A stretch of 36,912 nt of DNA. It comes from Vulcanococcus limneticus LL. Its GTDB lineage: Bacteria > Cyanobacteriota > Cyanobacteriia > PCC-6307 > Cyanobiaceae. Position numbers and translations under genes: made by a program. The stretch spans positions 1 through 36,912 of the forward strand of contig NZ_NQLA01000030.1 of the NCBI RefSeq assembly GCF_002252705.1. The letters are read 5' to 3'. Below are positions 5,547 to 35,689 of the stretch, piece after piece (the first letter of the stretch is position 1; the number at the start of each line of letters is the position of its first letter). The notes below the pieces were generated by a model. The model was not told the origin of the DNA. It searched no databases and saw only the letters and a list, made by a program, of their open reading frames with translations.

Positions 5547-6304
5547 ACAGGCGCAAAACCATTGGCTTTGATCGGCGTCTGGCGCTCGACTGGCTGGAGG
5601 CCACAGCCAGCCGGGTGGCGGCAGGTGACTCCCTGGAAGAACTGAGGGCCGGAATGTGGGAGTACCTCGAAGGCAAGGTGAGCGGGGACAAGTTCAACAG
5701 CGATCGTGGCAAGACCATGACCGTGCTCACCAGGATCTGGGCCAAGGTTCCACCCGCTGTTGATCCCCTGAAGACCCGGGCGGTAGCCGCCTTTCAGACA
5801 TCAAAAGCGCGTGAGCATCTCGCCCTGCATTGGGCCATGGCGATCGCCAGCTATCCCATCTTCTCCGATGTCGCCGCAACGGCAGGGCGCCTGCTCACGC
5901 TGCAGGACTCCTTCTCGCTCGCCCAGCTCACCAACCGGATGGTGGCGCAATGGTCCGAGCGTCCAGTGCTGGTGAAGTCCACGCAGCGGATCATCCGTTC
6001 GCTTGTGGACTGGGGAGCTCTTGCAGACACCGAGACCAGAGGCGTTTATGGACGAGCTCCAAAGGCTCTGCCCATCTCCAAAGAGATTGCACTACTACTC
6101 TGCGAGGCGCTCCTGCTCGATAATGAGCATCATTCCCTGCCTGCCAACCAGCTTCTGGATCATCCAGCCTTATTCCCTTTCACTCACTCACTAACCATGG
6201 CAGGCCTCAGAGAAGAGCCCGTCTTCGACGTTCATCGCCAAGGGGTCGATGGTGACATGATTGAGCTTCGACACCCGCAAGCGAGTAATATCATGCCCGA
6301 GTGA
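5543..6304 (+). CDS. brxA: BrxA-like BREX protein
   Basis: A 253-aa helical, basic protein starting at the ATG that overlaps the pglZ stop by four bases. The segment around LALHWAMAIASYPIFSDV followed by GRLLTLQ resembles BrxA/DUF1819-type proteins, small winged-helix DNA-binding components of BREX. The position as last gene after pglZ is exactly that of brxA in type 3 systems. The final 70 residues are less constrained and end just before an AT-rich gap. The identification leans on gene order and a general resemblance, so a divergent or unrelated terminal gene remains possible. Confidence 0.65.
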   Translation: MNRRKTIGFDRRLALDWLEATASRVAAGDSLEELRAGMWEYLEGKVSGDKFNSDRGKTMTVLTRIWAKVPPAVDPLKTRAVAAFQTSKAREHLALHWAMAIASYPIFSDVAATAGRLLTLQDSFSLAQLTNRMVAQWSERPVLVKSTQRIIRSLVDWGALADTETRGVYGRAPKALPISKEIALLLCEALLLDNEHHSLPANQLLDHPALFPFTHSLTMAGLREEPVFDVHRQGVDGDMIELRHPQASNIMPE

Positions 6305-6401: not shown

Positions 6402-6959
6402 ATGGTCCTAGCCCGCAAGGAGCCAGCCGGCTATCCAGAACTCAGCTTTCTAGAGTTTGACGTGCTGGAACTTCTTGCTGACATCCAGGTCGAGATGGGG
6501 CTGACCAGCGCAGAACCTGCAACACTTAGCCTTCAATCAATAGAAACACTGGCCTGCATTTATCATGGCCCCGGGAAGGCAGGAGGCAATATCTACCTCC
6601 ACTCACTATTCAACCGTTCTGACGTACCACAGCCAGTGATCGAACACGTGCTCCGGCATGAGTTGCTTCACCTCAAGATCCCCGCCCGCGTGATTGATGG
6701 AAAGAGAATAGATCATCCGCCCGAATTCTGGGAAGCCGAAGCGAAGCTTGTGCCATGGAAGTCAGCTTCCTGGGCATGGATGTACACAGCCTTCTGGGAT
6801 GCACTTAAGGTTGATCGCGATAACGAGTGCATCTGGATTAAAAAAAACTGGAAGCGCCTGCAGCGCCATCCCTATCCAAGCTGGCAAGCGATCCTTGATG
6901 ACACCAAGCTCTTTGAAGAAAAAGAGGAAGAGATCAAAGGTCTCATGCAGGGAATTTAA
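6402..6959 (+). CDS. Zinc metallopeptidase with HELLH motif (SprT/YgjP-like)
   Basis: A 185-aa protein with an HEXXH zinc site (RHELLHLKIP, His86, Glu87, His90) and a downstream HPPEFW (His105) that supplies the third ligand. This layout is typical of SprT/WSS1 and YgjP/M48-type minigluzincins, whose HxxxFW motif is characteristic. No signal peptide or membrane segment is seen, so it is cytoplasmic. It lies 97 bases after brxA on the same strand but in more AT-rich DNA with no convincing ribosome site. It may have its own promoter and be a separate cargo gene of the defence island. The substrate is unknown. Its regular length and intact motif argue against a pseudogene. Confidence 0.65.
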   Translation: MVLARKEPAGYPELSFLEFDVLELLADIQVEMGLTSAEPATLSLQSIETLACIYHGPGKAGGNIYLHSLFNRSDVPQPVIEHVLRHELLHLKIPARVIDGKRIDHPPEFWEAEAKLVPWKSASWAWMYTAFWDALKVDRDNECIWIKKNWKRLQRHPYPSWQAILDDTKLFEEKEEEIKGLMQGI

Positions 6960-6985
6960 GTACTACGGCTGATGCTCATTCTCAT

Positions 6986-7159
6986 CTACCCGCTTTTGCT
7001 TGGCGCTTCCAAGAAGACCGAAAACCAGGAACCACCAGGGCCAACAACTGCCTCTCGGCCATAAGGGTGTCGATGCACATGCTCGCAGTTCCAGGCGGAA
7101 TCTTCGTAATCGATCAATTTGATCAAGACCCAGTCGCCCACACCTTCCTTCGTGGCCAT
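6986..7159 (-). CDS. Small 57-aa hypothetical protein downstream of the HNH gene
   Basis: Not a recognised family. The protein starts MATKEGVGDWVLIKLIDY and ends in KSG. It has a compact beta-like core with several Trp and His residues. The ATG lies seven bases after the stop of the HNH nuclease gene on the same strand, suggesting the two are co-transcribed and perhaps act together, for example as a partner or inhibitor. A longer reading of the frame to 7312 would overlap the HNH gene and has a poor N-terminus, so the shorter start is preferred. No clear Shine-Dalgarno sequence is present. Confidence 0.45.
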   Translation of the reverse strand: MATKEGVGDWVLIKLIDYEDSAWNCEHVHRHPYGREAVVGPGGSWFSVFLEAPSKSG

Positions 7160-7166
7160 ATCACAT

Positions 7167-7973
7167 CTATTCGATAGACAGCGGAGCCACTTCTGCAGAC
7201 TGTGCCTGCTCGAGAAGCCTGCACCCTTTCCTCGCATTTTCAGATGCCCCGATAATACGCAGATTGGAAGGATGATGAAGGCCTCCTTTGGCGAGCGGAG
7301 TGATGTGATCAACGTGGTACTTGATGAACCCAGCCGCTTGATTCCGTTGATCCCGATCCCCGTAGATATCCTGGATCTTCGCTTTTTCCTGCTGGTTCAA
7401 ATCTGGCGTTTGCTCAAGGAGTCGCTGCTTTCTTCTCTGCAGGTAAATAGCCGATTTATGCCGGTTGGCTTCGTACACTGCCTCCGGCGGCGGGCAAGCC
7501 AGGCCTTCCAGGCCGAGTGCGGGCCGTTTCAGTGACCAAAGCTCCTGGCGCAGCTGTTTTGAGCACCACTGGTGATACCGAGTATCGCCGTGGAGGTCGA
7601 TTACGTCTCTAAATCTGCTTACGACATAAATAAAGTCATCCCCAAGATGTGCACCTGTCCACTGAGTCCAGCACCTTGCTAGGTAGCGCTCTTTGCTCCT
7701 TACCCAGATGAACAGGGTGGGAAGCTCAAGATCTTCTTCTCCTTTGGCTGGCCCCCGTCTGGCGTATGTGCAGTCGCCTGGCTTTGTAACTAGCCCGCGG
7801 TCGTTCGACTGAATAACGCGGAACTTCAAATCCATGGCGGCTGGAGCACTAACCCGCTGCTGCTGCACCCAGCAGCCTATGGGCGGTGGAGCTGGTAGGC
7901 CAGGCAAGCCGGGATAAGGGGATTTGCTCAAGGTTCTCGGGCCCCGCAGCTGCGGAAGGAATTGGCTTGCCAT
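7167..7973 (-). CDS. HNH endonuclease
   Basis: A protein of about 268 aa with a C-terminal HNH (beta-beta-alpha metal) module: YHVDHITPLAKGG followed by HPSNLRII, the classic DH...P...GG...NL pattern. A preceding basic helical region (QRRKQRLLEQTPDLN) resembles the linker seen before HNH domains. The N-terminal 50 residues are proline-rich, and an internal ATG (MDLKFRV) could be the real start; the chosen ATG is 15 bases inside a possible GTG start. HNH nucleases often accompany phage terminases, but this one is far from the terminase genes and between the BREX island and the sigma factor. It may belong to either region or be an independent homing-type or defence nuclease. Confidence 0.7.
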   Translation of the reverse strand: MASQFLPQLRGPRTLSKSPYPGLPGLPAPPPIGCWVQQQRVSAPAAMDLKFRVIQSNDRGLVTKPGDCTYARRGPAKGEEDLELPTLFIWVRSKERYLARCWTQWTGAHLGDDFIYVVSRFRDVIDLHGDTRYHQWCSKQLRQELWSLKRPALGLEGLACPPPEAVYEANRHKSAIYLQRRKQRLLEQTPDLNQQEKAKIQDIYGDRDQRNQAAGFIKYHVDHITPLAKGGLHHPSNLRIIGASENARKGCRLLEQAQSAEVAPLSIE

Positions 7974-8037
7974 CAGGCCGTCAAACACCCACCTGAATCC
8001 CTCGTCCAGTCCTCGCGCTGCGTCAAGGATCTAGCCA

Positions 8038-12228: not shown

Positions 12229-13143
12229 TCAGGGCAGCACCAGCGGCATCGGGGCGACGTTGAACAGGCGTGCGGCGGCCTTGCGGTTGCACACCGCAAA
12301 GCCCACGTACCAATCCACCCGCGTCCGGAACACCGGCGCGTCGTGCACCTCCCCGAAGTCCCGCACCGAGATGCCGTAGCGCCCCTCGAACGGGCCCTGC
12401 AGGCCGCACACCGCCGCATCACCGAGCACGCAGCAGTAGATCGAGGTGGTGTCTCCCGGTTCGTCGTAGCCGAGCACCGCGTTGCCCTCGGCGTCCTCCT
12501 CCACCAGCAGGATCTCGATCCCCTCGAAATAGTGGCGGCCGTCAATCACCTCGTAGAGGTCGCCGCCGGCCTGACGGGAGGCGGTGCTGATCTGGCGGCG
12601 GGCGGCCTTGCTGGCGATCAGCACCTTGTCGCCGCCGTAGCCGATCACGCTGTCGGTCAGCGCCTCCAGCGCCAGCAGGTTGAGGGTGCTGCCGCCGTTG
12701 TCGATCGTCTGGTCCTCACCCGGCACCAGACGCTTGCTCAACCCGTTGAAGGCCCGCGGGTCAAAGGTGTCGTCGCCGTTGATGATCGCCGCCTCCAGGG
12801 TGAGGCGCATCGAGCGCACCTTCATCTCGGTCTGGGCGGCGCGGGCCTCGGGGCCCTGCAGGTCCACGATCGAGCGGTCCACATCCAGATCACCGCCGAA
12901 CAGGTGCACGAACTCCGAATCGGAGTTGATGACCCCGTAGCTCTGGCGGTAGCCCTCGTTCACAGCCCGGAAGCCCACGCGGGGGAGTTTCGTTTCAGCC
13001 GGAAAGCTCAGCGAGCCGCCCACGAGGTTGCGGAAGGGCAGGCGGCGCAGCAGCTCCCCCTCCGCAAAGGTCTTGAGCACCGCCAGCTGTTCAGCGCGGC
13101 GGGCGTATTTCTGCGCCTCGATCAAGGTCAGGCCCAAGGGCAC
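12229..13143 (-). CDS. Major capsid protein, HK97-fold
   Basis: About 304 aa from a GTG at 13143 (PLGLTLIEAQKYARR). This start was chosen because related capsid proteins begin with a short helix of this kind. An upstream GTG at 13206 would add 21 residues. Characteristic stretches are LLRRLPFRNLVGGSLSF followed by LPRVGFRAVNE, then INGDDTFDPRAFNGL, and a final block EGRYGISVRDFGEVHD ending in a V/A-rich strand. These match the N-arm, E-loop and P-domain pattern of phage major capsid proteins that need a separate scaffold. A scaffold-like gene lies upstream in the same transcription direction. No capsid protease is recognised nearby. Confidence 0.8.
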   Translation of the reverse strand: MPLGLTLIEAQKYARRAEQLAVLKTFAEGELLRRLPFRNLVGGSLSFPAETKLPRVGFRAVNEGYRQSYGVINSDSEFVHLFGGDLDVDRSIVDLQGPEARAAQTEMKVRSMRLTLEAAIINGDDTFDPRAFNGLSKRLVPGEDQTIDNGGSTLNLLALEALTDSVIGYGGDKVLIASKAARRQISTASRQAGGDLYEVIDGRHYFEGIEILLVEEDAEGNAVLGYDEPGDTTSIYCCVLGDAAVCGLQGPFEGRYGISVRDFGEVHDAPVFRTRVDWYVGFAVCNRKAAARLFNVAPMPLVLP

Positions 13144-13397
13144 GCTCCCGGGGCCTCGCCCCAGTGACAACAGCAGCTGTTGCCAGGTGACCCACGCCCC
13201 AACCACCGAGAAGACAGAACCGTGGTGGCCCAGCTCCTGGTGGATCGGCTACGCGCAGCCCTCCTCATGGTCCGGGCGGCCTCAAGGGCTGCGCGAGTCA
13301 GCCGGACTGGTGCGTTGGCTGCGCTGCGCTCCGCATTGCAGAGGGGGCTGCCCCTTGACCCCGCCCGGCCTGCTTCGGGGTCTCCGCTACGCCTGCC

Positions 13398-19371: not shown

Positions 19372-20961
19372 TCAGCCGCCACTACCCCCGTTGGGCTCGC
19401 CCAGCCCCAGCTGCTGGCGCAGCTCGGCCCCATCGATCACCCCCCGCTCATGCAGCACCAGCCACTCCTGCACCGAGGGCTGGGGTTTGCGCGGTGGTTG
19501 GGGCGGCACCAGCGGGCAGATCTCCACACTGCAGGCCGGCGCGTCCGCCAGCTTTTCGCCGGTGAGGCGGGTCCACTGGCGCAGCAGGGTGCTGAGCATC
19601 GAGCTCTTCTGGCCCGCCAGCGACTGCAGCACCGCAAAGCTCTGGCCGGCAGTCAGGGAAATCTCCAGCTCGGTGCGGGCGGGACCGTGGCCGCCGGCGG
19701 GGATCAGGGCATCGCGGCGCATCGCCTCCTCCAGCTGCTGCAGATAGGCCCGGTGCTCCGCTAGCGATCGGGCTTCTATTTCCACCCACTGGAACGTGGC
19801 GCCCTCGGGCAGGTCCATGAAGGAGGAGGTGGAGAGCACCAGGCGCTGGGGGCGCTGGCCTTCTGCCCCACCGGTGCCTGCTCCCGAACCCAGGGCGCCA
19901 TCACTGCGGCGGAAGCCGTAGGCATCGACCAGCCCCGTGCGTACCCCTACCGGCAGGGCGGTGCGGGAAAGGAGATCTTCGTATTCGCTGCGGCAGCGGT
20001 AGTGGTTGAGGTACTGGTGGGCCAGGCCCAGGTGGGGCAGATCGCCCTCGCCGAAGGCAGTGCCATCCACCGAGTACCAGAGGGCCGGCAGGTCAAAGCG
20101 CTGGGGCATCCGTTCCGGCTCACCCACCGGCACCACGTCGTAACCATCGACGGTGCCGGGGTTGGGGTTGGCCTGCCAGCTGCGCAGCACCAGTCCGTCA
20201 TCGGTGACCGAGAGGCTGCGGTACAGCCAGGCCGCCGGATCCGGTACCAGCCCGCCGTGGGCATCGATCACCACCGTGGGCACGGCGGCATTGCCGCTGG
20301 CAAACCGGGGCGGCAGGGCCTGCCGACGTGGCTCCCGCCAGACGATCTCCACCGGCCCCGACGCTGGGGCGCCTGTGGCGCCATCGGTGGGCAGGCGCCA
20401 GTTGAGCAGGTCTCCCCGGGGTACTAGCTGCAGCCGCGGCAGGGAGAGCCGGTCACCCTTGGCGAGGGCCTCCAGCCGGTCGCCTTCTGAGGGCCAGCGG
20501 TGTTGGGGCGGCAGCTGCAGGATCAGGCAGCCGCCATCCCGCAGGGTGAGCAGGTCGGCCAGGAACAGGAACACCCCCAGGTCTGTGCCCTGGCCATCCA
20601 CATCGGTGGCCACCCGGCTCAGGGAGTCGGGCAGCTCCTGCCAGGCCAGCCGCGACAGCATCCCGGCGTAGGTGCGCAGGGCGTCGCGGTAGAAGCCCGT
20701 CGGCCGGGCTGCCTCCAGCCGCTTGAGGTGGCAGGTCTCGGGCTCCTCGATGCCCCTGGGCAGATAGACAGGCCGACGGCTGGTGCCGTCAGGCAGCTCC
20801 AGCAGGGTCCAGCAGTCGTAGACCAGCTGCAGGCGGTCCCGCAGGCCGGAGAGGGTGGGGTGTTCCAGCCAGGGGGACTCAGCAGGAGCAATTAGTTGCG
20901 TCTCTGATGGGCAGGCGGGGCTGCTGGAGGTGGCTGTCCTGCGGCGGCGGGTGGTGGGCAC
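19372..20961 (-). CDS. Portal protein, DUF4055 type
   Basis: A 529-aa protein with a GTG start at the far end and no clear ribosome site. The order of segments fits DUF4055 portals: an N-terminal helix (LVYDCWTLLELPDG), LPRGIEEPETCHLKRLEAA, FYRDALRTYAGMLSRLAW, a central beta domain (DGYDVVPVGEP), then the stem segment LAHQYLNHYRCRSEYEDLL and ALPVGVRTGLVDAYGFRRS. Helical SLAEHRAYLQQLEEAMRRD and LLRQWTRLTGEKLAD form the crown. The portal is the dodecameric ring through which terminase packs DNA into the head. Length is normal and no frame break is seen. It follows the terminase genes in transcription order, with the Lit-like cargo gene inserted between. Confidence 0.75.
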   Translation of the reverse strand: MPTTRRRRTATSSSPACPSETQLIAPAESPWLEHPTLSGLRDRLQLVYDCWTLLELPDGTSRRPVYLPRGIEEPETCHLKRLEAARPTGFYRDALRTYAGMLSRLAWQELPDSLSRVATDVDGQGTDLGVFLFLADLLTLRDGGCLILQLPPQHRWPSEGDRLEALAKGDRLSLPRLQLVPRGDLLNWRLPTDGATGAPASGPVEIVWREPRRQALPPRFASGNAAVPTVVIDAHGGLVPDPAAWLYRSLSVTDDGLVLRSWQANPNPGTVDGYDVVPVGEPERMPQRFDLPALWYSVDGTAFGEGDLPHLGLAHQYLNHYRCRSEYEDLLSRTALPVGVRTGLVDAYGFRRSDGALGSGAGTGGAEGQRPQRLVLSTSSFMDLPEGATFQWVEIEARSLAEHRAYLQQLEEAMRRDALIPAGGHGPARTELEISLTAGQSFAVLQSLAGQKSSMLSTLLRQWTRLTGEKLADAPACSVEICPLVPPQPPRKPQPSVQEWLVLHERGVIDGAELRQQLGLGEPNGGSGG

Positions 20962-21314
20962 TGGCTACTGGTGGGGTCAGAGCCATTGCCAGAGGCCGTG
21001 ATTGGCAGCGGGAAGGCTATGCAGGATCTGCATGGTTCCAGTCAGATCATCCAGGCAAGCTGGTCACATGCCGTGGGAGTTCTGAGCTCTTATCAGGGTT
21101 CCCAGAAGATCCAGGCGGGATGGGCTCCCTGCTTAGCATTGACAGCAGCACAGCGGGTTTAGACTTCAACTCGCAATGGCTTCGGGTTCTTATTCGGGTC
21201 ACAAATTGTCTGACTATATTTTAGCAAGGATCAGCCTACTTAGCATCAGGCAGGCCAATGCAAGCGTTCATCCCGCTGCTTTCATTTCCAATTTGCGTTT
21301 CATGGGAAGAGATC
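20962..21314. other. Gap between the portal and Lit-like genes (divergent)
   Basis: 353 bases with no supported gene. The left part is GC-rich like the phage and the right part is AT-rich like the Lit-like gene, so the composition boundary falls roughly at 21150-21200. TATATT (21215-21220) could be a -10 element for the rightward gene, but no matching -35 is clear. GGAAGAGATC directly before ATG 21315 is a good ribosome site. The portal start has none. Confidence 0.4.
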
Positions 21315-22244
21315 ATGACAACGTCTAGATTCACTGCCAAAGAAGGGAGGGACTACTGGCTTAATATCATGATTTCATGTGCACCTGAGCGGGAGGATGA
21401 AATACGGGGTTTATGGCATAAATACAGTCCAGCAGTCGAAATCGAAAATAGCAACGCAAGCAGGCTCACTGCTTCGCCAAAGGGATTAAGAATTGACATT
21501 AAGACGCCAGAGGTCTACTGGCTTATTGTATTTACAGGCTGGAAGGCGCTTGAAATATACGGCCCCTTAGTTGCCTATTCATCAATAAGTGGGATGCCCA
21601 TCGCTGAAGTTCTAGCACGTGATTCGGAGCTGCAATGCATGGAGCATGACTACAGAGCCTGCATGCGCACTGCCCATGAATACAAAAATTCTCGGGATGT
21701 AAATTCGATCCCTTGGCCGCCAGATATACCAAAGCCGTCAGAGAACAGATTTATGATTGACGACGCCCAATACAGATTTACATTTGATCTTGCCTGCTCT
21801 GCTTTGGGCTTCACGCTGTTCCATGAGTTTTATCATATTGTCTTGCTAAGTGAGGGTCGCTGTCCAAATGACATCCGAGAGGAAGAGATGCTGTGCGATG
21901 TTTGGGCTCGCAATTTCCTTACGGCTAAAGTTTCGGAGTACGCTGCGCCAAGGCAGCTTGATTTCAATCAAGTACTAGAGCGACGGTCAATGGGAGCCGT
22001 ACTTTCTGCCCTGATCATCTTTGAGATGACTCCGAGCTGGGCTCATGGTGGCACGAAAGAGTATTTTTCAGTTCGTGATCGCATTACCGCACTCTTTTCC
22101 AATACTTCATTGCCAACTGGCTGTCATTTTTGGAACTTTGCATCTGCCGTTCTAATCGGAATGTGCAGGAGCAAGAGTATTCAGTTTGCGCCTCCCCCCA
22201 TGACCGCTAAAGCACTTGCAGAGCACTTGTTACAGCTTATTTAA
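21315..22244 (+). CDS. Lit-like phage-exclusion metallopeptidase (peptidase U49 type)
   Basis: A 309-aa protein from the ATG preceded by GGAAGAGATC; an upstream ATG at 21258 has no ribosome site. It has a zinc-peptidase motif FHEFYHIVLL (His170, Glu171, His174) followed by REEEMLCDVWARNFL, in which the Glu/Asp would complete the site. This pattern and length resemble peptidase U49, whose founding member Lit of E. coli cleaves elongation factor Tu during T4 infection and aborts phage production. The gene is markedly more AT-rich than its surroundings and on the opposite strand. It is inserted between portal and terminase genes, the hallmarks of a moron or defence cargo. The family assignment is from the motif and general layout; a different gluzincin family is possible. 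Confidence 0.65.
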   Translation: MTTSRFTAKEGRDYWLNIMISCAPEREDEIRGLWHKYSPAVEIENSNASRLTASPKGLRIDIKTPEVYWLIVFTGWKALEIYGPLVAYSSISGMPIAEVLARDSELQCMEHDYRACMRTAHEYKNSRDVNSIPWPPDIPKPSENRFMIDDAQYRFTFDLACSALGFTLFHEFYHIVLLSEGRCPNDIREEEMLCDVWARNFLTAKVSEYAAPRQLDFNQVLERRSMGAVLSALIIFEMTPSWAHGGTKEYFSVRDRITALFSNTSLPTGCHFWNFASAVLIGMCRSKSIQFAPPPMTAKALAEHLLQLI

Positions 22245-22355
22245 CTTTTGGTTCTGGCAGTCATTACAAAGCGGCATGTCTAGCATCAAGATGCAGAAGA
22301 CGTGAGCACAAGTTGCTGTCTTGGCTGAGACCTCGTTCGCTTTTGATCTTGGCGT

Positions 22356-23051
22356 TCAATCAATAGGAAAAGCAACTACCCGAACTGAGCATGCATCGAC
22401 GATCCCAATCCACTGCTCGCGGCTGATCCCTATTCGCTTCAGCATCACGTCTACAGCCACTCCTGAGGTGAGTAGACGCTGCCCCCGCGCATGGATCTCC
22501 CGCCAGGTAGGCGGCACCTTCAGCAGGAAGCCGTTGTCGCGCAGAAAGTGCGTGATCTCCCCATTGGCGTAGGTGCGCCCATAGGGGCGGAATGGCCCCC
22601 GTGAGGGGTCATACCGGCGCGCCGCTTTGATCAGCCCGATCATCGCCAGCTGCAGCAGATCCTCCTTGGGATGGACAGTGCGCCGAGCGAAGTTGCCGGC
22701 GATCTTCTCCGCCAGGTCCATGTGCTGTAGCGCCAGGGCATCGGCCGCGGCATAGGGCCGCACCGGGCGCTGCCGCCGCGGCCTGCAACGCACGGGTTGC
22801 TGACCCTGGATTCGGGGCAGGTGGTTTGCCGACACCAGCAGGTTGATCTCCAGCTGCTGCGCCCGGGCATGGCATGCCGGCCGGCGGTAACGCCGTTGCC
22901 GCAGCATCCGCTCCACGCCGGCGGCATCGCCCACCAGCACCACGGAGATCGGCAGGACCAGCTGCACCACAACTGCTGCCGGCTCAGCAGCCCCTGAGTT
23001 CGCCAGCGGGGAGGGACTGGGACATTCCCGCACCGCGGAGACCATCGGCAT
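22356..23051 (-). CDS. Sigma factor-like protein with regions 2 and 3 but no region 4
   Basis: A 231-aa protein from the ATG two bases after the terminase stop (TGA-GC-ATG). The first 100 residues are unassigned and basic (RMLRQRRYRRPACHA, RCRPRRQRPVRPY). A clear sigma region 2 follows: ALQHMDLAEKIAGNFARR, EDLLQLAMIGLIKAARRYDP, then FRPYGRTYANGEITHFLRD with the aromatic DNA-melting residues. A region 3-like helix (VPPTWREIHARGQRLL, ending DVMLKRIGISREQW) is next, and then the protein stops. Region 4, which reads the -35 element, is missing. Related full-length factors are the SigB/F/G type. It may need a partner or use extended -10 promoters. It is co-transcribed with the terminase genes. Confidence 0.7.
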   Translation of the reverse strand: MPMVSAVRECPSPSPLANSGAAEPAAVVVQLVLPISVVLVGDAAGVERMLRQRRYRRPACHARAQQLEINLLVSANHLPRIQGQQPVRCRPRRQRPVRPYAAADALALQHMDLAEKIAGNFARRTVHPKEDLLQLAMIGLIKAARRYDPSRGPFRPYGRTYANGEITHFLRDNGFLLKVPPTWREIHARGQRLLTSGVAVDVMLKRIGISREQWIGIVDACSVRVVAFPID

Positions 23052-23053
23052 GC

Positions 23054-24697
23054 TCACCGGCTCACCAGCAGTGGCGTCACCACCGGCTGGATTCCCTGGT
23101 CCTTCCAGTAGCGCCCCTCCAGCCACAGGGCGCCGTGGCAGAAAGCATCCACCAGGTCCTTGCTGCCCTTGGGGAAGCGGATCGCCTCTTCCACCAGTGG
23201 CTGGGCGCGGTGATGGAAACGGATCTGGCCCGCCTCCACCAGTGGGGCCACGGCATGGGCGCGGGTTTCCTTGCTGCCTCGGGCGGTGATCGGCAGCATC
23301 CCCGGCACCCGCCGCCGCAGCGTCTGCAGCACCGCCGGGCCGTTGGCGGCGTCCTCGATCAGCACGGCATTGGGCCGCAGGCCCTGCTGCTCCAGCGCTT
23401 CCAGGCAGCCCAGCAGGAAGCGGATCACCTCCGGCAGGCCAAAGCGGTGCCGGGCCGCCCAGAGCACCTCGATCTCCAGCTCCTTCGGGACCATCGGCCC
23501 CTGAGATTCACCCGATCGGGGGATGGCAGAGCGGGCCGGTGGTGCCAGCAGGCCCACCAGGCAGAAGCCGCAGTAGTCGCTCTCTGCCTCCCCCTTGAAG
23601 CTCAGGTCACAGGAGAGAGCGAGCAGGGCGTAGTGGCGCAGGCTGCCGTCATCGCGGGGGAAGGGCGGCCGGATCCACTGCCGCAGGAAGATTGAGCCCG
23701 ATGCCGGGCTTGGCCGCTGCTGGTACAGCGCCGCCCACCAGTAGGCCCCCAGGCGGGCGCGGATCTTGAGCAGTTCCGGCAGGGGGAACCGCTCAGGGCA
23801 CAGGGCTTCTCCTGGCTGGCGCCAGTCGGGGATCAGGGTGCAGGTGGGCGGCAGCTGGGGCCGTTCGCCTGGCTCTTCCGCGATAGCCGGCAGGTCCAGC
23901 ACGGTCCAGTTCTGGGGGGCCTCGCCCAGCTCCTGCTCCAGCAGCCAGCCGATCACGTCCTGGTGGTCCCAGCGGGTGAGTACCACCACCTGAGCCGAGA
24001 GGTTCGGCTGGGCGTTGCCGTCCGGCCCCAGCACCGACGCGGGCTCAGCGCGGGTGAGCCAGACCGAACGCAGCCAGTCGATCAGCTTCTGCCGCAGCGC
24101 CGGGCTGGCGGCATCACCGGGGCCCTTGTAGGGGTCGTCGATGATTCCCAGGCTGTAGCCCTTGCCCGTGAACGGGCCATCCACACCGGCAGCGATACAC
24201 CCGCCCCGCTGGCGGGTCAGCCAGTTGCCCACAGCCGCCGAATCGCGCGCCAGCAGATGGCCGGTCACCCGGTAGAAGTGGCGGGCTTCTCGGGAGTGGG
24301 CATAGGCCAGCTCCGCCGAATAGGAAGCGATCGCCGCGAAGAGATGCGGGTAGCGCTGCAGGAAGTAGGCCGGGAACAGCTTGGACACCAGGAGGCTCTT
24401 CCCCAGCCGGGGAGGACAGGTCACGATCAGCCGGCTCAGTTGGCCATCGGCCACCTGCTGGAGCAGGTCGATCAGCACCTCAGCCCAGCGGTGGAAGCCG
24501 TAGCGGGGGTAGGCCTCGGCAATGAAGCTGCGCAGGCTCTGGGGTTCTGCCTGGATTGGGGTGCTGCTGGCCGGCAGGTGCAGCAGGCCGCTGTCTCCCC
24601 AGGGGTCGAGCTCGCTCAGCAGCAGGCCTCCTTCTGCAGGGGCCTGTGGAGTGAGCCCCGGTGCCGGCAGCGTGGTGGCAGGGGTGGACACCCTCAT
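23054..24697 (-). CDS. terL: Terminase large subunit
   Basis: A 547-aa DNA-packaging motor. The ATPase domain has Walker A IVTCPPRLGKSLLVS (Lys100), adenine-side LFAAIASYSAELA, Walker B SLGIIDDPYKG, and the coupling motif VVVLTRWDHQDVIG. The C-terminal RNase H-like nuclease shows its acidic residues in LALSCDLSFKG, VLIEDAANGP and KDLVDAFCHG. Length and motif order are complete, so it is probably active. It cuts concatemeric DNA and drives it through the portal. Its ATG overlaps the small-subunit stop by four bases, and the sigma-like gene begins right after its stop. Confidence 0.9.
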   Translation of the reverse strand: MRVSTPATTLPAPGLTPQAPAEGGLLLSELDPWGDSGLLHLPASSTPIQAEPQSLRSFIAEAYPRYGFHRWAEVLIDLLQQVADGQLSRLIVTCPPRLGKSLLVSKLFPAYFLQRYPHLFAAIASYSAELAYAHSREARHFYRVTGHLLARDSAAVGNWLTRQRGGCIAAGVDGPFTGKGYSLGIIDDPYKGPGDAASPALRQKLIDWLRSVWLTRAEPASVLGPDGNAQPNLSAQVVVLTRWDHQDVIGWLLEQELGEAPQNWTVLDLPAIAEEPGERPQLPPTCTLIPDWRQPGEALCPERFPLPELLKIRARLGAYWWAALYQQRPSPASGSIFLRQWIRPPFPRDDGSLRHYALLALSCDLSFKGEAESDYCGFCLVGLLAPPARSAIPRSGESQGPMVPKELEIEVLWAARHRFGLPEVIRFLLGCLEALEQQGLRPNAVLIEDAANGPAVLQTLRRRVPGMLPITARGSKETRAHAVAPLVEAGQIRFHHRAQPLVEEAIRFPKGSKDLVDAFCHGALWLEGRYWKDQGIQPVVTPLLVSR

Positions 24698-26410: not shown

Positions 26411-26688
26411 GTGACGCGGTGTGACGGTGGGCGTAACAGCCGAGATGGCCGGCCGGCAGTGGTTTCTGGGGGTGCCTGTAACGATGTAACCCTTTTTCAG
26501 ATATAGAGGCATTAGCAAGCAGCAGTACCAAACCAAGAGGGTGTGCATTCGTCTTTGAATTCATAGGGGGCTCTATGTGCTCCCTGGAGCGTTACATCGT
26601 TACAGAGGCCTAGATCGCTTGCGGGGCAGTCGATCTGGGCGTTACCGCTGCTGTTATATCTGGCCGCTTTGTAACGGCTTTCGGTTAC
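26411..26688. repeat. Cluster of GTAAC/GTTAC motifs with a 15-bp inverted repeat; candidate replication origin
   Basis: The 287-bp gap between the exonuclease and primase-helicase genes contains eight GTAAC/GTTAC pentamers (26433, 26478, 26486, 26591, 26599, 26641, 26671, 26684). Two related GTGACG units lie at 26411 and 26421. CTGTAACGATGTAAC (26476-26490) recurs as its exact reverse complement at 26591-26605, about 100 bases apart. Pairs within each copy are eight bases apart. The last motif overlaps the primase stop codon. Clustered short sites beside a primase-helicase gene resemble iterons at which a replication initiator assembles. Binding by a phage repressor is the alternative. Confidence 0.55.
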
Positions 26689-29315
26689 AGCACGCCCAGG
26701 GGAAGCGCAACGGCGCGGCTGACCATGCCGGCGCCACAGAAGCGCACCGGTCCAGCCCGTTGCGCACCGCCTAGGCGCAGCAGCACCACCGGCCAACTGT
26801 TCTGCCAGGCGGTATCAGCAAGAAACTGCTCGATCGCCTTGGCGGTGTTGCTCACCAGCAGACGCTCCTGATCCACCCGCAGGCCATGGCGGCCCAGGGT
26901 CTGGGCCGCCAGGCCCGGGGTCACGTCGATGCAGCTGCTGTGGCAGGCCGCCAGCTCTACCAGTTCGCCAATGGTGCGGGTGACGGGCTTGTCATCGGTC
27001 TCCACCCGCACCTGCCGCTGCAGGATCGTCTGGATGCAGCGGGCCTCGTCGGGCACTTCGGTGCTCTGGCTGTAGCTGTCCCAGTTGTGGCAGTCGATGC
27101 ACTCCTCGGCCTCCTGCTGGCTGGGCACCGCATCGCTGAGCAGCGACCAAGCGCCGGCCATCAAGGTGCCGTACTGATCCCCCAGGCGCTGGGAGTCGAA
27201 GTGGCGGGCGGCAGCCGCGGAGAAGACCACGACTGACTGGCGGATCACCGGGATCAGCGACACGGTCCGGGCGATCAAGCGCCGCGCCAGCTGCGGGGTG
27301 ATGTAGCGCTCAAGATCCCGATCGAGGCTCTGCCAGTGGGCCTCACGCTCCTCCTGGCCCATCTCGGTGGGGCTGCGGAGCGTCAGCTGCGCGAAGCGGC
27401 TCTTGTCGGCCCCCTGCTTGAGGGCGGTGGCGATCGAGGACATCAGGAACATCGAGCGCACCCGGTAGCGGCTCACATCGCCGCTGGGGGAACCCTTGAG
27501 CATCTCGGCGCTGCTCTCGCTGCTGGCCACTCGCGCCAACGAGAGGATCGCCTGCATCCGCTGCTGGTCGCCCTTCTCGTTGCTCTCCGCCTCATCGAAG
27601 ACCACCGGCACGGCGTCTGAGCAGATGGTCTGGCGCAGGCCGGCCTCTGTCGTGGCGCCCGACACCGCCAGGCGCAGGTCGCCGAGCAGGGGCACCACAA
27701 AGCGATCGAGGATCTGGCTCTTGCCCGAGCCGGCACCGGCGGTGAGCCAGAGGTGGGGCCGCCAGCGCAGGGCTCCGCAGATGGGGGCCAGCACCACCCA
27801 GCCGAGCAGCAGGGTGCCGGAGGCGGGCACCTCCCAGCGGAAGCGGTTGGCAATGCCCACGATCACCGCTGCTTCGTCCACGGTCAGGGGCTGAACGCCG
27901 CAGGGCCCCTCCAGACGTTTGAGGCGCTGGTAGATGTGCCGTGAGCGGAACGGTGCTGTGATCGGCTGCTCCCCCTCGGGGGTGATCAGGCGATCGCCGA
28001 GGTGCAGCACGGTGCGGCCCTCATCCCACCAGGCCCCGCGGCCGCGGATGCGCTCCACCGCAAAGATCCCCATGGCGGCGGAGCTCTTGTGCAGATCGCT
28101 GGCCGCCGCCGGCCAGTTCACACCGGTGCGGCTGGGATACAGGGTCTCCCAGTACTCCAGCGGAGCCAACGCCACCAGGTGAGTAGCGGTGTGGCAGCCG
28201 CGGGGCAGGCGGATCACCTGACCGGTGCTGCCGGGTTGGTAGAAGTTCGCGTCGGCGTCGTACCCCAGGCAAAGAAAGGGTGCTGCCGGCATGGGGACTG
28301 CAGCCGCTGCAGGGGCAGGCGGTGGCGCAGCTCCATCACCGCTGCCATCGGCACCCGTCTCTGAGGGTGTCCATGGCTGGGCTGCTTTCGCCAGCTGCCG
28401 GGCGGCCTGCCGGGGCGTCCAGTCGGCATCCGCCAGGTCCCAGCCCTGCGGCAGGTCTGCTGGCAGCTCCACCAGCTGCAGCTGGCAATCGAGAGGGTGG
28501 AGCAGATCGGCCAGGCTCTGCATTGCAGCCTGGCCGGCCTCATCGCCATCGGGCCAGAGCGTCACCGAACGGCCAGCCAACGGCGTCCAGTCCGCCTTGG
28601 CGATCGCCTTGGCGCCATTGGCCCAGCTCAGCACCGCATGGCCTGGGAACAGGTGGGCAGCGGCATCAGCGGTGCCCTCCCCTTCCACCACCAGCACCGG
28701 GGCCTCGGGGCGCTGGAGCAGATCCGGCAGCCCATAGAGCGGCCTGGGTGTGGGCCAGTCGCAGGTGAAGGCGTCGCGGCGGCTGGGGCGATGCCAGTCC
28801 CCATCCAGCCAGACCCGATGCAGGAAGGCCTTGCCGCCGCTGCGCAGCCGGATCCGCTGGATCCAGAACAGCACCTCACCGGCGGCGTTCCGGTAGGACC
28901 ACTGGGCGGTGGCCCCCCGGTTCAACGGCGGCGGCGGTGCATCGGCAGGAGGCTTCTCGGGCATCCGCCAGGGCTTGCCCTTGCGGCTGGAGCCCGCGCT
29001 GGAACTGGTGTCCTGCCCATCGGGCACCAGGCCAAGGAAGGCCTCCACCTGCCGGGCCGCCTCCACAAAACTCCAGCCCTGCCGGCGCATCAACAGGTCC
29101 ATGCCGGAGCCGGCACCTCCGCGCTGGTCCTTGCCCCCGCATTGGTTGCAGAACCAGGAGCCGCTGCCGTCCTTGTCGTCAAAGCGGTAGCGATCCGTCC
29201 CGCCGCAGAGCGGGCAGGGCTGATGGCGATCGCTCAGCTCCGCGTCGCTCAGCCCTGCCAGGGCAGGAAGGATCTCCGGCCAGCGGCCCCTGGCCGCAGC
29301 AATGGCATCGGCCAT
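26685..29315 (-). CDS. Primase-helicase (zinc ribbon, Toprim, DUF927-like ATPase)
   Basis: An 876-aa protein from ATG 29315 (MADAIAAARGRWPEI). The N-terminus has a primase zinc ribbon: CPLCGGTDRYRF and WFCNQCGG (Cys34, 37, 56, 59). A Toprim-like domain follows near residues 203-260 (VLVVEGEGTADAAAHLF; VTLWPDGDEAG). A large C-terminal ATPase has Walker A WLTAGAGSGKSQIL (about 522-535), Walker B VPVVFDEAESNEKG and arginine-rich later segments. It resembles the DUF927 helicases of cyanobacterial and other phage or satellite elements. It would prime and unwind element DNA, starting perhaps from the repeat cluster directly downstream. A 27-residue longer start is possible but overlaps the preceding RHH gene. 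Confidence 0.8.
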   Translation of the reverse strand: MADAIAAARGRWPEILPALAGLSDAELSDRHQPCPLCGGTDRYRFDDKDGSGSWFCNQCGGKDQRGGAGSGMDLLMRRQGWSFVEAARQVEAFLGLVPDGQDTSSSAGSSRKGKPWRMPEKPPADAPPPPLNRGATAQWSYRNAAGEVLFWIQRIRLRSGGKAFLHRVWLDGDWHRPSRRDAFTCDWPTPRPLYGLPDLLQRPEAPVLVVEGEGTADAAAHLFPGHAVLSWANGAKAIAKADWTPLAGRSVTLWPDGDEAGQAAMQSLADLLHPLDCQLQLVELPADLPQGWDLADADWTPRQAARQLAKAAQPWTPSETGADGSGDGAAPPPAPAAAAVPMPAAPFLCLGYDADANFYQPGSTGQVIRLPRGCHTATHLVALAPLEYWETLYPSRTGVNWPAAASDLHKSSAAMGIFAVERIRGRGAWWDEGRTVLHLGDRLITPEGEQPITAPFRSRHIYQRLKRLEGPCGVQPLTVDEAAVIVGIANRFRWEVPASGTLLLGWVVLAPICGALRWRPHLWLTAGAGSGKSQILDRFVVPLLGDLRLAVSGATTEAGLRQTICSDAVPVVFDEAESNEKGDQQRMQAILSLARVASSESSAEMLKGSPSGDVSRYRVRSMFLMSSIATALKQGADKSRFAQLTLRSPTEMGQEEREAHWQSLDRDLERYITPQLARRLIARTVSLIPVIRQSVVVFSAAAARHFDSQRLGDQYGTLMAGAWSLLSDAVPSQQEAEECIDCHNWDSYSQSTEVPDEARCIQTILQRQVRVETDDKPVTRTIGELVELAACHSSCIDVTPGLAAQTLGRHGLRVDQERLLVSNTAKAIEQFLADTAWQNSWPVVLLRLGGAQRAGPVRFCGAGMVSRAVALPLGVL

Positions 29316-29325
29316 GGGATGTCGC

Positions 29326-29529
29326 TCACCATCCCTGGCTGGCGACCGTCTGGTTGCCCGTAGACCCGCGATCAGGTGCGGGCACCAGGGACTCACGGTG
29401 GATCACCGCGTCGAGCACCTGGCGCAGGGCGGCTGAGCGACTCAGGGACCCGTGCCGACGGCGTGCATCCAGCCAGGCCAGTTGCTCTTGGGTGATCGAG
29501 ACACTCACCGGCAGGGCGTAGTCAGACAT
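29326..29529 (-). CDS. Small ribbon-helix-helix protein
   Basis: A 67-aa protein. LPVSVSITQEQLAWLDARR gives the beta strand and first helix of an RHH/CopG DNA-binding fold. GSLSRSAALRQVLDAVIHR is the second helix with the typical SRSxAxRxxL pattern. It is the first gene of the leftward replication operon, 10 bases before the primase-helicase start, and starts opposite the rightward SF2 helicase across a 106-bp divergent gap. It probably binds that gap and controls both operons. A short basic tail follows the fold. Confidence 0.75.
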   Translation of the reverse strand: MSDYALPVSVSITQEQLAWLDARRRHGSLSRSAALRQVLDAVIHRESLVPAPDRGSTGNQTVASQGW

Positions 29530-29635
29530 GGGAACTCTGCTCGTGAACTACAGCCTAATGCCCTGGGCCAGCTCTCGCTAGGCTGAGCCATAGAAGGCCA
29601 GTGGCTAGCTCCTGTCCTGATCCCCTGTGATCCTG
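29530..29635. promoter_or_regulatory. Divergent control gap between replication operons
   Basis: 106 bases between the leftward RHH gene and the rightward helicase gene must hold promoters for both. Candidate short symmetrical motifs are GGCTGAGCC near 29581 and GGCTAGCTCC near 29603, possible RHH operator halves. No strong -10/-35 pair can be assigned, and neither gene has a clear ribosome site. Phage-specific sigma factors may read non-consensus promoters here. Confidence 0.35.
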
Positions 29636-31066
29636 ATGGCCCCGATCGCCCTGCGCGACTACCAGCAGCAGCTGCTGGCCGATCTCCGCGCCGCCCTCAA
29701 GATCCACCGCCGGGTCTGTGCCGTCATGCCCACCGGTGCGGGCAAGGGCCAAACCATCGGCGCCATCGTCCAGGGCGCGGCCGGCAAGGGCCGGCGGATG
29801 CTGTTGCTGGCCCACCGGGCTGAGCTGATCGAGCAGCTCAGCGGCACCGTGCGGGCGTGGGGACTGGAGCCGGATGTGATCGCCCCCGGCCTCCGGCTGC
29901 AGGGCCGGCAGGTGGCGGTTGGCTCGGTGCAGACCGTGGCCCGGCGGCTGGGGCAGCTGTCAGCGCCGGATCTGATCATTCAGGACGAGGCCCACCACCT
30001 GGTGGCCGGGAATGCCTGGGGCCGGATCATCGAGGCCTGGCCTGATGCCCTCTTGATCGGCAAGACCGCCACCCCGGAACGCCTCGACGGCAAGGGGTTG
30101 GGCGTGGAGGCCGGCGGCTATTTCGAGGCCCTGGTGCTCGGCCCCTCGGCCGCCTGGCTGGTGGAGCAGGGCTGGCTCGCCAGGCCCAAGGTCTTCTCCT
30201 GGCCTGGAGCCAGGAACAGCAAGCTGCGCCGCCGCATGGGCGAGTTCGACCTGGAGCAGGCGGCACGCGCCTACGGGGGCCGAGCCGCCATCGGCGATGC
30301 GGTATCTCACTACCAGCGGCGCCTGCACCCGGGCACCGCCATCTGCTTTTGCTGCACCATCGAGCACGCCGAGCAGATGGCCGCGGCCTTCCGCGCTGCG
30401 GGAATCCGGGCCGCCTCCGTTAGCGGCGGCACCCCAGCCGAGGAGCGCAAACGCCTGATCGCCGGGCTTGGCACCGGCGAGGTAGAGGTGCTCACCAGCT
30501 GCATGATCATTTCCGAGGGCACCGACATCCCCTCGGTGGGCGGCGCGATCCTGATGCGCCCCACCGCTTCCCTGAGCCTCTACCTGCAGATGGTCGGCCG
30601 GGCCCTGCGTCCCGCATTTGGGAAGCAGGAGGCGGTGATTCTTGATCACGTCGGCAACGCCCATCGCCATGGCCTGCCTACCGACGAGCGGGAGTGGAAC
30701 CTGGCCGGCCGGCGCCGGCGGGAGGGCGTCTCGATCCCGATCAAGGACTGCCCGGTCTGCTTCTGCAGCTGTCCCAGTGCGGCGCAGGTCTGCCCCGACT
30801 GCGGCCACCTGTTCCTGGCCGACGAGCGCGATGAGCAGCGCCACGGGCTGCAGCAGCTCGATGGAGAGTTGGTTGAAGTCACGGGCTCAGCCCGCCACAG
30901 GCCACAGGCCCAGCAGCAGCGGCCCCAGCGCAGGCACCCGGCAGCTGGCTGCCGCACCTTTGAGCAGCTGCTGCAGCGGGAGCAGGAGCGCGGCTACAAA
31001 CCCGGCTGGGCCAGGCATGTCTGGGCCGCTCGGCACCACAACAAGGCAAACAGCAGTACGCTTTGA
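29636..31066 (+). CDS. Superfamily 2 DEAD/DEAH helicase
   Basis: About 476 aa from ATG 29636 (MAPIALRDYQQQLLADL); a GTG three codons upstream is possible. Q-motif-like RDYQ, Walker A VMPTGAGKGQTIG, Walker B LIIQDEAHHLVAG, motif III GKTATPERLDG, and C-terminal motifs SCMIISEGTDIPSVGG and QMVGRALRP are all present. Lysine precedes glycine in the usual GKT box (GKGQT), a slight variation. A zinc-finger-like CPVCFCSC and CPDCGHLFL follow the helicase core, as in RecQ/Rad25-like phage helicases. It would unwind DNA for replication or recombination. The TGA stop lies inside the inverted repeat upstream of the toxin-antitoxin pair. Confidence 0.8.
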   Translation: MAPIALRDYQQQLLADLRAALKIHRRVCAVMPTGAGKGQTIGAIVQGAAGKGRRMLLLAHRAELIEQLSGTVRAWGLEPDVIAPGLRLQGRQVAVGSVQTVARRLGQLSAPDLIIQDEAHHLVAGNAWGRIIEAWPDALLIGKTATPERLDGKGLGVEAGGYFEALVLGPSAAWLVEQGWLARPKVFSWPGARNSKLRRRMGEFDLEQAARAYGGRAAIGDAVSHYQRRLHPGTAICFCCTIEHAEQMAAAFRAAGIRAASVSGGTPAEERKRLIAGLGTGEVEVLTSCMIISEGTDIPSVGGAILMRPTASLSLYLQMVGRALRPAFGKQEAVILDHVGNAHRHGLPTDEREWNLAGRRRREGVSIPIKDCPVCFCSCPSAAQVCPDCGHLFLADERDEQRHGLQQLDGELVEVTGSARHRPQAQQQRPQRRHPAAGCRTFEQLLQREQERGYKPGWARHVWAARHHNKANSSTL

Positions 31067-34596: not shown

Positions 34597-34883
34597 TGGC
34601 CTCGCCGTACTTCACCAGCAGCCGGGGCGGTGGGCGCCGCCCCCAGCTGCCGGCCTTCTGCCGCACACGCCGGCCCACCACCGTCGCGGTTACGGCCAGC
34701 AGCCTCGTCGGGCTGCGTGGCCTGGTGCTGCTGGGGCTGGCGTTTCAGCTCAGCACCCTGCTGCTCGTACTCGCCGGGCCCGTGCCACCGCGGCCGATGG
34801 CCAGCACAAAGAGCGTCTTCCGCCCCGATGCCGGCAGTGATGCCGCTGAGCTCCCACCCGTCACACCGCTTTCAGACCGATGA
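34596..34883 (+). CDS. Small single-pass membrane protein (95 aa)
   Basis: The ATG overlaps the SSB stop (TGATG). A basic N-terminus (RGGGRRPQLPAFCRTRR) precedes one hydrophobic helix, LVLLGLAFQLSTLLLVLAG (about 43-61). A polar tail follows, with its stop overlapping the KilA-N start. No family recognised. A membrane protein inside an early operon might serve in superinfection exclusion or anchoring, which is an inference. Confidence 0.5.
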   Translation: MASPYFTSSRGGGRRPQLPAFCRTRRPTTVAVTASSLVGLRGLVLLGLAFQLSTLLLVLAGPVPPRPMASTKSVFRPDAGSDAAELPPVTPLSDR

Positions 34884-35689
34884 ACACCACGACGTCGTCG
34901 TCCCATTCCGCTGCATCTGTCGCCTCGATGAATCACCCCGCTCTGATCTCCCGCTCCTGGAACGGCACGCCGATTTCTCGGCGCACCACCGATGGCTACG
35001 TCAATGCCACCGCCATGTGCAAAGCCAATGGCAAGCGGTGGAAGGACTATCGCGAGTCCGACCGGTGCCAGCTGTATCTGGATGCCCTGGAAAGCGTGGC
35101 CGGAATTTCCGTCCACGCCCTCGTTGAGTCCCGATCAGGCGGCGCCGGCGGCGGCGGCACCTGGGTTCATCCCCAGGTCGCGGTCGATCTGGCCCGCTGG
35201 ATCAGCGCGCCGTTTGCGGTGTGGATGGACGGCTGGTTCCTAGAGAGCGTTCAGCAGAAGCAGCTGACACCGGTGGAGACGACTGCCGTGCCCGGGCTCC
35301 GGGAAGCCGAGGTGATCACCCTGGTGGAGCGCAGCATTGGCTTGTTCGAGCGGCTGGGCGGGCTGGATCAGCGCGATCAGCTCCTGTTCAAGGACATCGT
35401 GCGCAGCAACGTGCTCACCGCGAGCTCGGGACTGCTGCCCGGCACCCAGACCGACGAGGAGCTCACCTTGGGGGATGCCTGGCTGGAGGTGTTCCAGCAA
35501 GCGCTGCCGCGCGGCCAGTTCTGCGCAGCCGGCAAGCTCATAGCCAGGGCCTACCGCGAGGAGTTCGGAGAAGAACCTCCTTGCCGCCAACAGTTTGTTG
35601 ACGGGGCCCCGCGCCAGGTCAAGAGCTATCGCCGCTCCTGGTTGATCGAGACCCTCCAGCGCTTCCGCGCTCAGCTGGCAGGAGGCTGA
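34880..35689 (+). CDS. KilA-N domain protein
   Basis: A 269-aa protein starting at ATG overlapping the preceding stop; an internal ATG (MNHPALISRSW) is an alternative start. Residues about 22-120 carry the KilA-N DNA-binding domain: RSWNGTPISRRTTDGYVNA, AMCKANGKRWKDYRES, GTWVHPQVAVDLARWIS and FAVWMDGWFLE. The C-terminal half is helical, with a final basic segment (QVKSYRRSWLIETLQRFRA). KilA-N proteins are common in phages and act as DNA-binding regulators or antirepressors. Ordinary length, no defect. Confidence 0.8.
   Translation: MNTTTSSSHSAASVASMNHPALISRSWNGTPISRRTTDGYVNATAMCKANGKRWKDYRESDRCQLYLDALESVAGISVHALVESRSGGAGGGGTWVHPQVAVDLARWISAPFAVWMDGWFLESVQQKQLTPVETTAVPGLREAEVITLVERSIGLFERLGGLDQRDQLLFKDIVRSNVLTASSGLLPGTQTDEELTLGDAWLEVFQQALPRGQFCAAGKLIARAYREEFGEEPPCRQQFVDGAPRQVKSYRRSWLIETLQRFRAQLAGG

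Follow-up and report, generated by a model that had tools for sequence, protein, structure and literature searches.

What does a peptidase gene do among the structural genes of a cyanobacterial prophage, and what kind of site does it occupy? The question arises at 21315-22244 of a 36,912-nt stretch of DNA from Vulcanococcus limneticus LL (hereafter, the window), where an earlier note had proposed a Lit-like exclusion peptidase inserted between terminase and portal genes and next to a BREX island. Our preferred reading, to which we give a probability of roughly 60%, is that this is a lysogenic-conversion defence gene of an integrated temperate cyanophage, whose product would cut EF-Tu on a phage trigger.

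A divergent U49 peptidase gene

The local claims of the earlier note were borne out. The frame is open from the ATG at 21315 to its stop at 22244 on the forward strand, encoding 309 aa (an earlier ATG at 21258 gives 328 aa), and runs opposite to the terminase and portal genes, both on the reverse strand. It is AT-rich, with 46.9% GC compared to 70.6% for portal and 69.5% for terminase, and has a ribosome site of its own, GGAAGAG, 3 bases 5' of ATG 21315. The product contains HEFYH at residues 170-174 and EEEMLCD at 189-195, and the numbering of Glu171 is correct. Its position between terminase and portal is likewise right, with one gene, for a sigma-70 region-2 protein (22356-23126), between the lit-like gene and the terminase (Table 1). 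A promoter and terminator scan of the window returned 3 promoter matches against 1.7 expected, none positioned to drive the lit-like gene. Other phage genes in the window encode proteins of LysM, scaffold-like and exonuclease-like type, and a VRR-nuclease is encoded on the forward strand. The contig end (36884-36912) reads as the start of a transposase-like gene that is also the cargo ORF L146_1, and a second AT-rich dip (6402-7988, GC 0.50-0.57), located between BrxA and the phage genes, has weak YgjP-like and weak HNH matches.

Table 1. Features of the window and cargo found in the same slot of related prophage copies.
Feature	Position or locus	Strand	Evidence or remark
HEC-02B protein, left contig end beside BREX genes	175-690	+	PADLOC E 8e-49
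BREX helicase (PADLOC BrxHI model)	691-3516	+	1330 bits
BREX-3 PglZ phosphatase	3429-5546	+	NF033449 635.8 bits, cut-off 250
BrxA	5543-6304	+	PADLOC E 1.8e-59
Major head protein of resident prophage, phrog_212 type	12229-13206	-	phrog_212
Portal protein	19372-20961	-	phrog_145 E 6.5e-17; PF13264
Upstream-of-portal shared region, right slot border	20962-21251		full in 6/30 related copies, partial in 14 more
Cargo of variable slot, borders approximate	21252-22341		GC 0.472; only the lit-like gene inside
U49/Lit-family metallopeptidase, 309 aa, alternative ATG 21258	21315-22244	+	HEXXH 170-174, EExxxD 190-195
Sigma-70 region-2 domain protein ('Sig'), left slot border	22356-23126	-	PF04542 45.5 bits; phrog_351
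Terminase large subunit	23054-24697	-	phrog_38 E 2.6e-76; PF17289
Phage DNA primase	26685-29396	-	phrog_35358 E 8e-136
Phage DNA helicase	29627-31066	+	phrog_16 E 2e-90
KilA-N protein	34880-35689	+	G007 counterpart ~2 kb from integrase-like gene, 3 kb from att repeat
GmrSD	L070		slot cargo, single scan
IetA + IetS (IetAS)	L147		slot cargo, single scan
OLD/AriA-like ATPase	L148		slot cargo, single scan
dGTPase	L160		slot cargo, single scan
Lamassu LmuB	L161, L072		slot cargo, single scan
HEC-04	L165		slot cargo, single scan
DO-GTPase	L150		slot cargo, single scan
DUF3368	L164		slot cargo, single scan
RiboL-PSP-HEPN, weak	L068		slot cargo, single scan
DUF3800	L069		slot cargo, single scan
DUF4365	L158		slot cargo, single scan
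Bro-N, just below cut-off	L067		slot cargo, single scan
Esterase-like	L075		slot cargo, single scan
AAA/NACHT, weak	L163		slot cargo, single scan
AAA, weak	L153		slot cargo, single scan

Profile searches upheld the assignment to the U49/Lit family. Pfam Peptidase U49 (PF10463) matched residues 120-209 of the window protein at 27.2 bits, above the gathering cut-off of 23.9 (27.8 bits on the same gene in the genome searches), and the PADLOC Lit model matched at E 5.5e-7; placement in an unrelated metallopeptidase family, which the earlier note had named as the refuting outcome, was not found. The NCBIfam Lit equivalog model (PRK09672.1) aligned with residues 19-294 at 127.7 bits (E 5e-37), below its 274-bit cut-off. 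Using a query profile of 14 members from the window protein's side of the U49 family, HHalign matched residues 49-307 to E. coli Lit and its phage relative L011 over 232 columns (96.9%, E 2e-10). The window protein is 16% identical to E. coli Lit (BLASTP: 24% over 151 aa, E 6e-5). Among 27 aligned homologues, E. coli Lit included, 14 columns are invariant: P24, E25, W69, P135, P139, P141, H170, E171, H174, E190, E191, D195, R224, and R256. The motifs of E. coli Lit are HEISH at 160 and EEREAD at 180, and we take its active site to be H160/E161/H164. Judged by sequence, the window protein is a Lit-like U49 peptidase, a distant relative and not a Lit equivalog; its gene extends the known family by a divergent member, found in a type of phage new to that family.

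In the tree, the window protein pairs with L013 from an Acetobacteraceae MAG, the nearest relative found (46% identity), with support of 100/99, and the branch dividing E. coli Lit from the window protein's clade amounts to 5.74 changes per column; the bootstrap had not settled and branches are long, so the placement of E. coli Lit, L008, L009, L012, and the window protein is unsure. Alignment and tree omitted 14 of the 33 genome loci, namely L022, L027, and L031 (like others), L030 (full-length, without HEXXH), L044 (partial), L045 (a 476-aa frame), and the cut-short frames L032 and L037-L043. In L037-L043, from seven proteobacterial genomes, the Lit-family gene is shortened to the same length (224 aa) with HEXXH kept, possibly representing a recent shared element with a truncated form. 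On an Agrobacterium plasmid (L003:7995-8918), an in-frame stop lies just ahead of EExxxD, and the gene is annotated as two.

A structure model built with 25 sequences (pLDDT 90.4, pTM 0.89) places HEXXH within helix 151-179 and EExxxD within the next helix, 187-203. In thermolysin-type gluzincins, the third zinc ligand comes from a downstream glutamate, and the modelled arrangement looks gluzincin-like; in it, E191 would probably be the third zinc ligand, supported by D195. Foldseek gave no match for the model at E 0.001 in the PDB and BFVD, and phmmer found no relative of the protein among PDB chains. With VIA-align the best Z was 4.4; rows for ACE2, which we take to be a gluzincin, were weak (Z 2.1-2.7).

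PF10463 matched one of 386 sampled genomes of the host's phylum and one of 400 of its family, in both cases the window's own, and the window protein used as query matched one of 197 genomes, again its own. No other U49 member was found in the sampled phylum or in the 399 other genomes of the family; since PF10463 also missed all 14 control genomes, an Escherichia coli among them, this is absence at the sensitivity of the search. An alignment- and pattern-based scan of one genome per species (84,980 species) yielded 33 relatives, all Proteobacteria by record titles. A further 51 plasmid records, mostly from Klebsiella, carry relatives. Single-protein scans of viral contigs and genome contigs found no relative, whereas alignments A1 and A3 did, and tblastn against 50,697 phage records found none for either the window protein or E. 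coli Lit. Since the relatives are all proteobacterial or on plasmids, with none elsewhere in the cyanobacterial sample, the AT-rich gene looks like a lateral gain, and its source was probably proteobacteria or their phages, if the direction of transfer is read correctly from the sequences.

Among these relatives, L012 belongs to a P2-like prophage, where it lies with one further ORF between genes for tail-fibre assembly and the sheath; we take the P2 site between genes G and FI to be the Z/fun moron site. L011 lies between a CI-type repressor and endolysin, terminase, and portal genes, and on one plasmid copy (L003) the Lit-family gene is three genes downstream of a Hachiman HamA gene. A recurrent gene family occurs upstream in 19 of 36 loci, ending ~1.5 kb from the Lit-family gene in L007 (7564-8493) and L026 (7498-8484); it is a possible functional partner of the Lit-family gene in proteobacteria.

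An AT-rich gene that differs from its surroundings and occurs in one of 400 family genomes might also be a passenger without present function, brought in by foreign DNA and now being lost, and several relatives are indeed shortened by stops (L032, L037-L043, and L003) or have no HEXXH (L030). We consider this very unlikely, as the frame in the window is intact, every invariant residue is kept at 46% identity to the nearest relative, and the slot that holds the gene is filled in every copy examined.

A variable slot between the sigma-like and portal genes

Of 296 genomes searched, 39 (the window's own among them) had relatives of the terminase, many of these >90% identical, and terminase and portal occur together in 10 viral contigs. 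The slot was compared in 31 copies, all with terminase and portal: the window, the 10 viral contigs, and 20 genome stretches drawn from ~74 terminase places, mostly the most similar ones with room on the contig. L076 (portal match 23%, no terminase found) was dropped from 11 portal loci; L077-L086, which are second stretches of contigs already represented by L066-L075, were also kept out of the counts.

Results showed that the gap between the sigma and portal genes exceeds 500 bp in all 31 copies (range 1060-8236 bp; GC 0.43-0.63), and no empty slot was seen among them. The neighbouring junctions exceed this length in 0/31 (terminase/sigma), 5/30 (portal/next gene), and 1/29 (next gene/LysM). 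There are 29 distinct sets of contents, shared only by L072 with L146 and by L150 with L151. Sequence shared with the window stops 1-15 nt past the sigma stop codon in 17 of the 30 other copies, falls short of that codon in 11, and continues to +79 and +85 in the remaining two; towards portal, it ends 33-296 nt upstream of the gene in 20 copies (283-296 nt in six of the 30) and within the gene in 10. After removal of L146 and L151, which repeat the cargo of L072 and L150, 24 of the 29 distinct copies had their longest cargo ORF oriented against the structural genes (binomial p 5e-4, a value that ignores relatedness). The slot is a fixed site whose cargo differs between close relatives, as P2/P4 hotspots are.

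Insertions were also seen nearby. The portal/next-gene junction is a less often filled second insertion point (~0.8-1.4 kb in L154, L155, L161, L068, and L146), and in L156 an insertion splits the sigma gene. Behind the major head gene, a ~10-kb cassette of RND metal-efflux-like and two-component genes (by eye) recurs in two genera with identical ORF starts (L147/L192, G085:C1:376400-386800; L153/L197, G046).

The cargo is rich in predicted defence genes, which again agrees with P2/P4 hotspots. From 122 slot ORFs called, 65 were scanned by PADLOC (mostly the longer ones, with repeats and the window's own gene omitted), and 175 models matched at 1e-5, compared to 18 for 65 control ORFs, taken from the 87 that ORF calling gave in five arbitrarily chosen 20-kb segments from two relatives; the contrast is a rough one, since the PADLOC alignment mode counts models and not unique proteins, and related models overlap. 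When ten cargo proteins were chosen for likely defence domains, eight matched PADLOC at E 1e-15 or better. Twenty cargo ORFs were scanned singly against Pfam, and the assignments from single scans appear in Table 1; L066_1, L073_1, L152_1, and L154_1 had no match in single scans. By eye, L146_1, L156_1, L156_9, and L156_10 are transposase-like.

No relative of the lit-like gene was found at this slot in any of the 30 other copies, which argues against a role in core phage control and bears on a further explanation, namely that the protein is a regulatory prophage protease of the ImmA/IrrE kind that cuts a phage repressor and has no defence role. Such a protease would account for a HEXXH gene in a prophage and for a weak match to phrog_2439, a 'transcriptional regulator' (E 0.06), but Peptidase M78 (ImmA/IrrE) is absent from the protein's Pfam matches up to E 1 and the neighbouring genes are sigma-like and portal, with no repressor. 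We give this explanation hardly any credence.

A prophage-carried defence gene fits the site better as we read it, and the sigma/portal site reads as a hotspot of phage-borne defence whose kind is known but whose location is new. The earlier note was right about the site of its exclusion gene and missed the cargo slot, the content of which differs in nearly every related prophage. The slot is more interesting than the gene and serves as a map for defence genes on temperate cyanophages.

Probable integration site and BREX-3 genes

That the gene belongs to a prophage in a cyanobacterium, as had been proposed, is supported by the phage genes around it, an att repeat at tRNA-Gly(CCC), and 16 phycobilisome matches in the genome. 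In a related genome, G007, two 100% identical prophage copies form a tandem with a spacing of 56,093 bp (G007:C18:84274-196505, L184-L189), owing to recent activity or to an assembly effect. They share a 46-bp att repeat that overlaps a tRNA-Gly(CCC) gene and adjoins a gene that probably encodes a tyrosine integrase (PDB match weak, E 0.004). The att core (44 bases) occurs exactly twice in the window's genome, on contigs C142 and C52. On C142, it is inside tRNA-Gly(CCC), next to a fragment of an integrase that matches the G007 integrase at 90% identity over 100 aa; on C52, it is next to genes matching G007's left end, followed by BrxF of BREX-3 (NF033453 148.7 bits, cut-off 50). The lit-bearing prophage most likely sits in tRNA-Gly(CCC). 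Another prophage copy in the same genome (C2) lies by tRNA-Ser and has different cargo.

The gene after BrxF encodes DUF6079, which we take to be BrxC of BREX-3, and is split: profile positions 1-143 end C52 (187.7 bits) and 140-1238 begin C62 (1340.6 bits). C62 (7 kb) continues with a pglX-like frame (by eye), and it starts with the same 97 bases as C158, the window's contig. Since the att core on C52 is followed by BrxF, the DUF6079 gene extends over C52 and C62, and the remaining BREX genes are on C158, contig logic makes it most likely that BREX-3 and lit share one prophage, with BREX-3 placed between attL and the tail genes, and the joining of C52 and C62 by the two parts of the DUF6079 gene makes this linkage firmer. 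The split gene and the identical 97 bases also suggest that repeated elements interrupt the BREX-3 operon, which looks broken; BREX may be inactive in this strain. The generic BrxC model (NF033441) matched best on C73 (G000:C73:117-3548, L205), at 1004 bits, and reached 41.6 bits, below cut-off, on C62. Considering that DUF6079 matches C62 and C52 strongly, C73 is probably a second, separate BREX-like system.

The BREX genes that the earlier note placed next to the lit-like gene are thus on the same contig but ~15 kb away, with the brxC-type gene split between contig ends; its idea of stacked defence holds, in that BREX-3 falls by contig logic in the same prophage, though with an operon that looks broken. 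Where the window prophage has BREX, G007 has a large left-end cassette (C18 ~91188-101570; L184, L185) with, by eye, ATPase, methyltransferase-like, and helicase-like genes, the last 34% identical in part to the BREX helicase. This cassette looks like a second defence slot.

Proposed mechanism and comparison with known systems

We infer that a U49-type zinc metallopeptidase related to Lit, carried in the exchangeable slot between the sigma-like and portal genes, would be made from its own promoter in the lysogen and stay latent until a trigger protein from an invading phage activated it. For T4-like cyanophages, a plausible trigger would be gp23, the major head protein, acting through its Gol-like segment when this is bound to EF-Tu. 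EF-Tu would then be cut in switch I at RG^ITI, translation would halt, and the infected cell would die, aborting the burst. EF-Tu is put forward as the substrate from the distant relationship to Lit, at a score under the equivalog cut-off.

In E. coli, translation of the Gol region of gp23 leads to cleavage of EF-Tu by Lit at Gly59-Ile60; T4-related phages are reported to share a conserved Gol, which Lit-type proteases of other prophages might also use (PMC3014915). The EF-Tu of the host keeps the RGITI site and reads EEKERGITINTAHVEYE. A search with T4 gp23 matched 2493 phage records, 388 with names starting Synechococcus, and residues 100-122 of T4 gp23 are identical at 15-17 of 23 positions in five cyanophage gp23 proteins. 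We take the borders of Gol to be gp23 residues 93-121. In six sequences, the mean identity of this segment was 0.56 compared to 0.36 for the whole protein (rank 63 of 493 gp23 windows), and that of the window starting at 100 was 0.66 (rank 25 of 493); Gol was above average in these sequences, though not reproduced as the most conserved part of gp23. The prophage's own head protein is of a different family (phrog_212) and might therefore not trip its own lit-like gene. A Gol-like segment was also looked for within the 36,912 nt, and the candidates were rejected, as every match in a loose scan carried 7-8 substitutions and many lay in odd frames.

The low identity to E. coli Lit, the other clade, and the missed equivalog cut-off count against Lit-type action and, along with the long branch between the two proteins, favour a U49 defence peptidase that aborts infection via a substrate other than EF-Tu, or on another trigger, its clade having diverged from E. 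coli Lit. The recurrent upstream genes of the proteobacterial relatives, missing from the window, point the same way and suggest that that clade may be a multi-gene system with another substrate. We regard this alternative as rather unlikely, given that the two proteins share catalytic and flanking invariant residues along their length, that the EF-Tu target site is present in the host, and that hosts of the Synechococcus type are infected by T4-like phages whose gp23 has a Gol-like segment.

EF-Tu cleavage in the lysogen is retained as our preferred reading. A broader picture, which we offer tentatively and would not call probable, is of a widespread picocyanobacterial temperate phage family with an exchangeable immunity slot that is dedicated and always filled, and with at least one more near attL (occupied by BREX-3 here and by the large cassette in G007); among the cargoes would be a cyanobacterial Lit that cuts EF-Tu on synthesis of the capsid protein and so kills cells under attack by T4-like cyanophages. 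If this is true, the circuit of Gol, EF-Tu, and Lit would be a general capsid-sensing device that extends beyond E. coli, and slot cargoes without assignment would be candidate new anti-phage systems. With a relative of Lit now seen in a cyanobacterium, and T4-like cyanophages infecting hosts of this kind, the idea on Gol raised in PMC3014915 becomes directly testable. No published account of a cyanobacterial Lit or of a sigma/portal prophage slot was found among the top-ranked matches in mostly open-access literature.

The window gene resembles lit of the E. coli K-12 prophage e14 (PF10463) in that both are prophage-borne and that their products are homologous over most of their length, with HEXXH and EExxxD at matching places. 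It differs in the 16% identity of its product, which falls in a separate long-branched clade and under the equivalog cut-off, in its cyanobacterial host, and in its location in an exchangeable slot among structural genes. The proteobacterial Lit-family genes are the closest relatives found, the nearest being L013 at 46%; the recurrent upstream family accompanies them in 19 of 36 loci, whereas the window gene is alone in its slot. As in BREX type 3, BrxF, PglZ-3, BrxA, the BREX helicase, and the DUF6079 gene are present, here over three contigs; unlike BREX type 3, the genes are most likely prophage-borne and the DUF6079 gene lies in two pieces, each at the end of a contig.

For the slot itself, the nearest precedent is the set of antiviral hotspots of P2 and P4 (Rousset et al., 2022; PMC9122126), a paper in whose main text the words 'Lit' and 'cyanobacteria' do not occur. 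The sigma/portal slot belongs to another phage family, in another phylum and at another site, and has no empty form in 31 copies. What it shares with the P2/P4 hotspots is a fixed site in a temperate phage at which the cargo changes from copy to copy, much of it antiviral or, in our case, predicted from sequence matches to be so.
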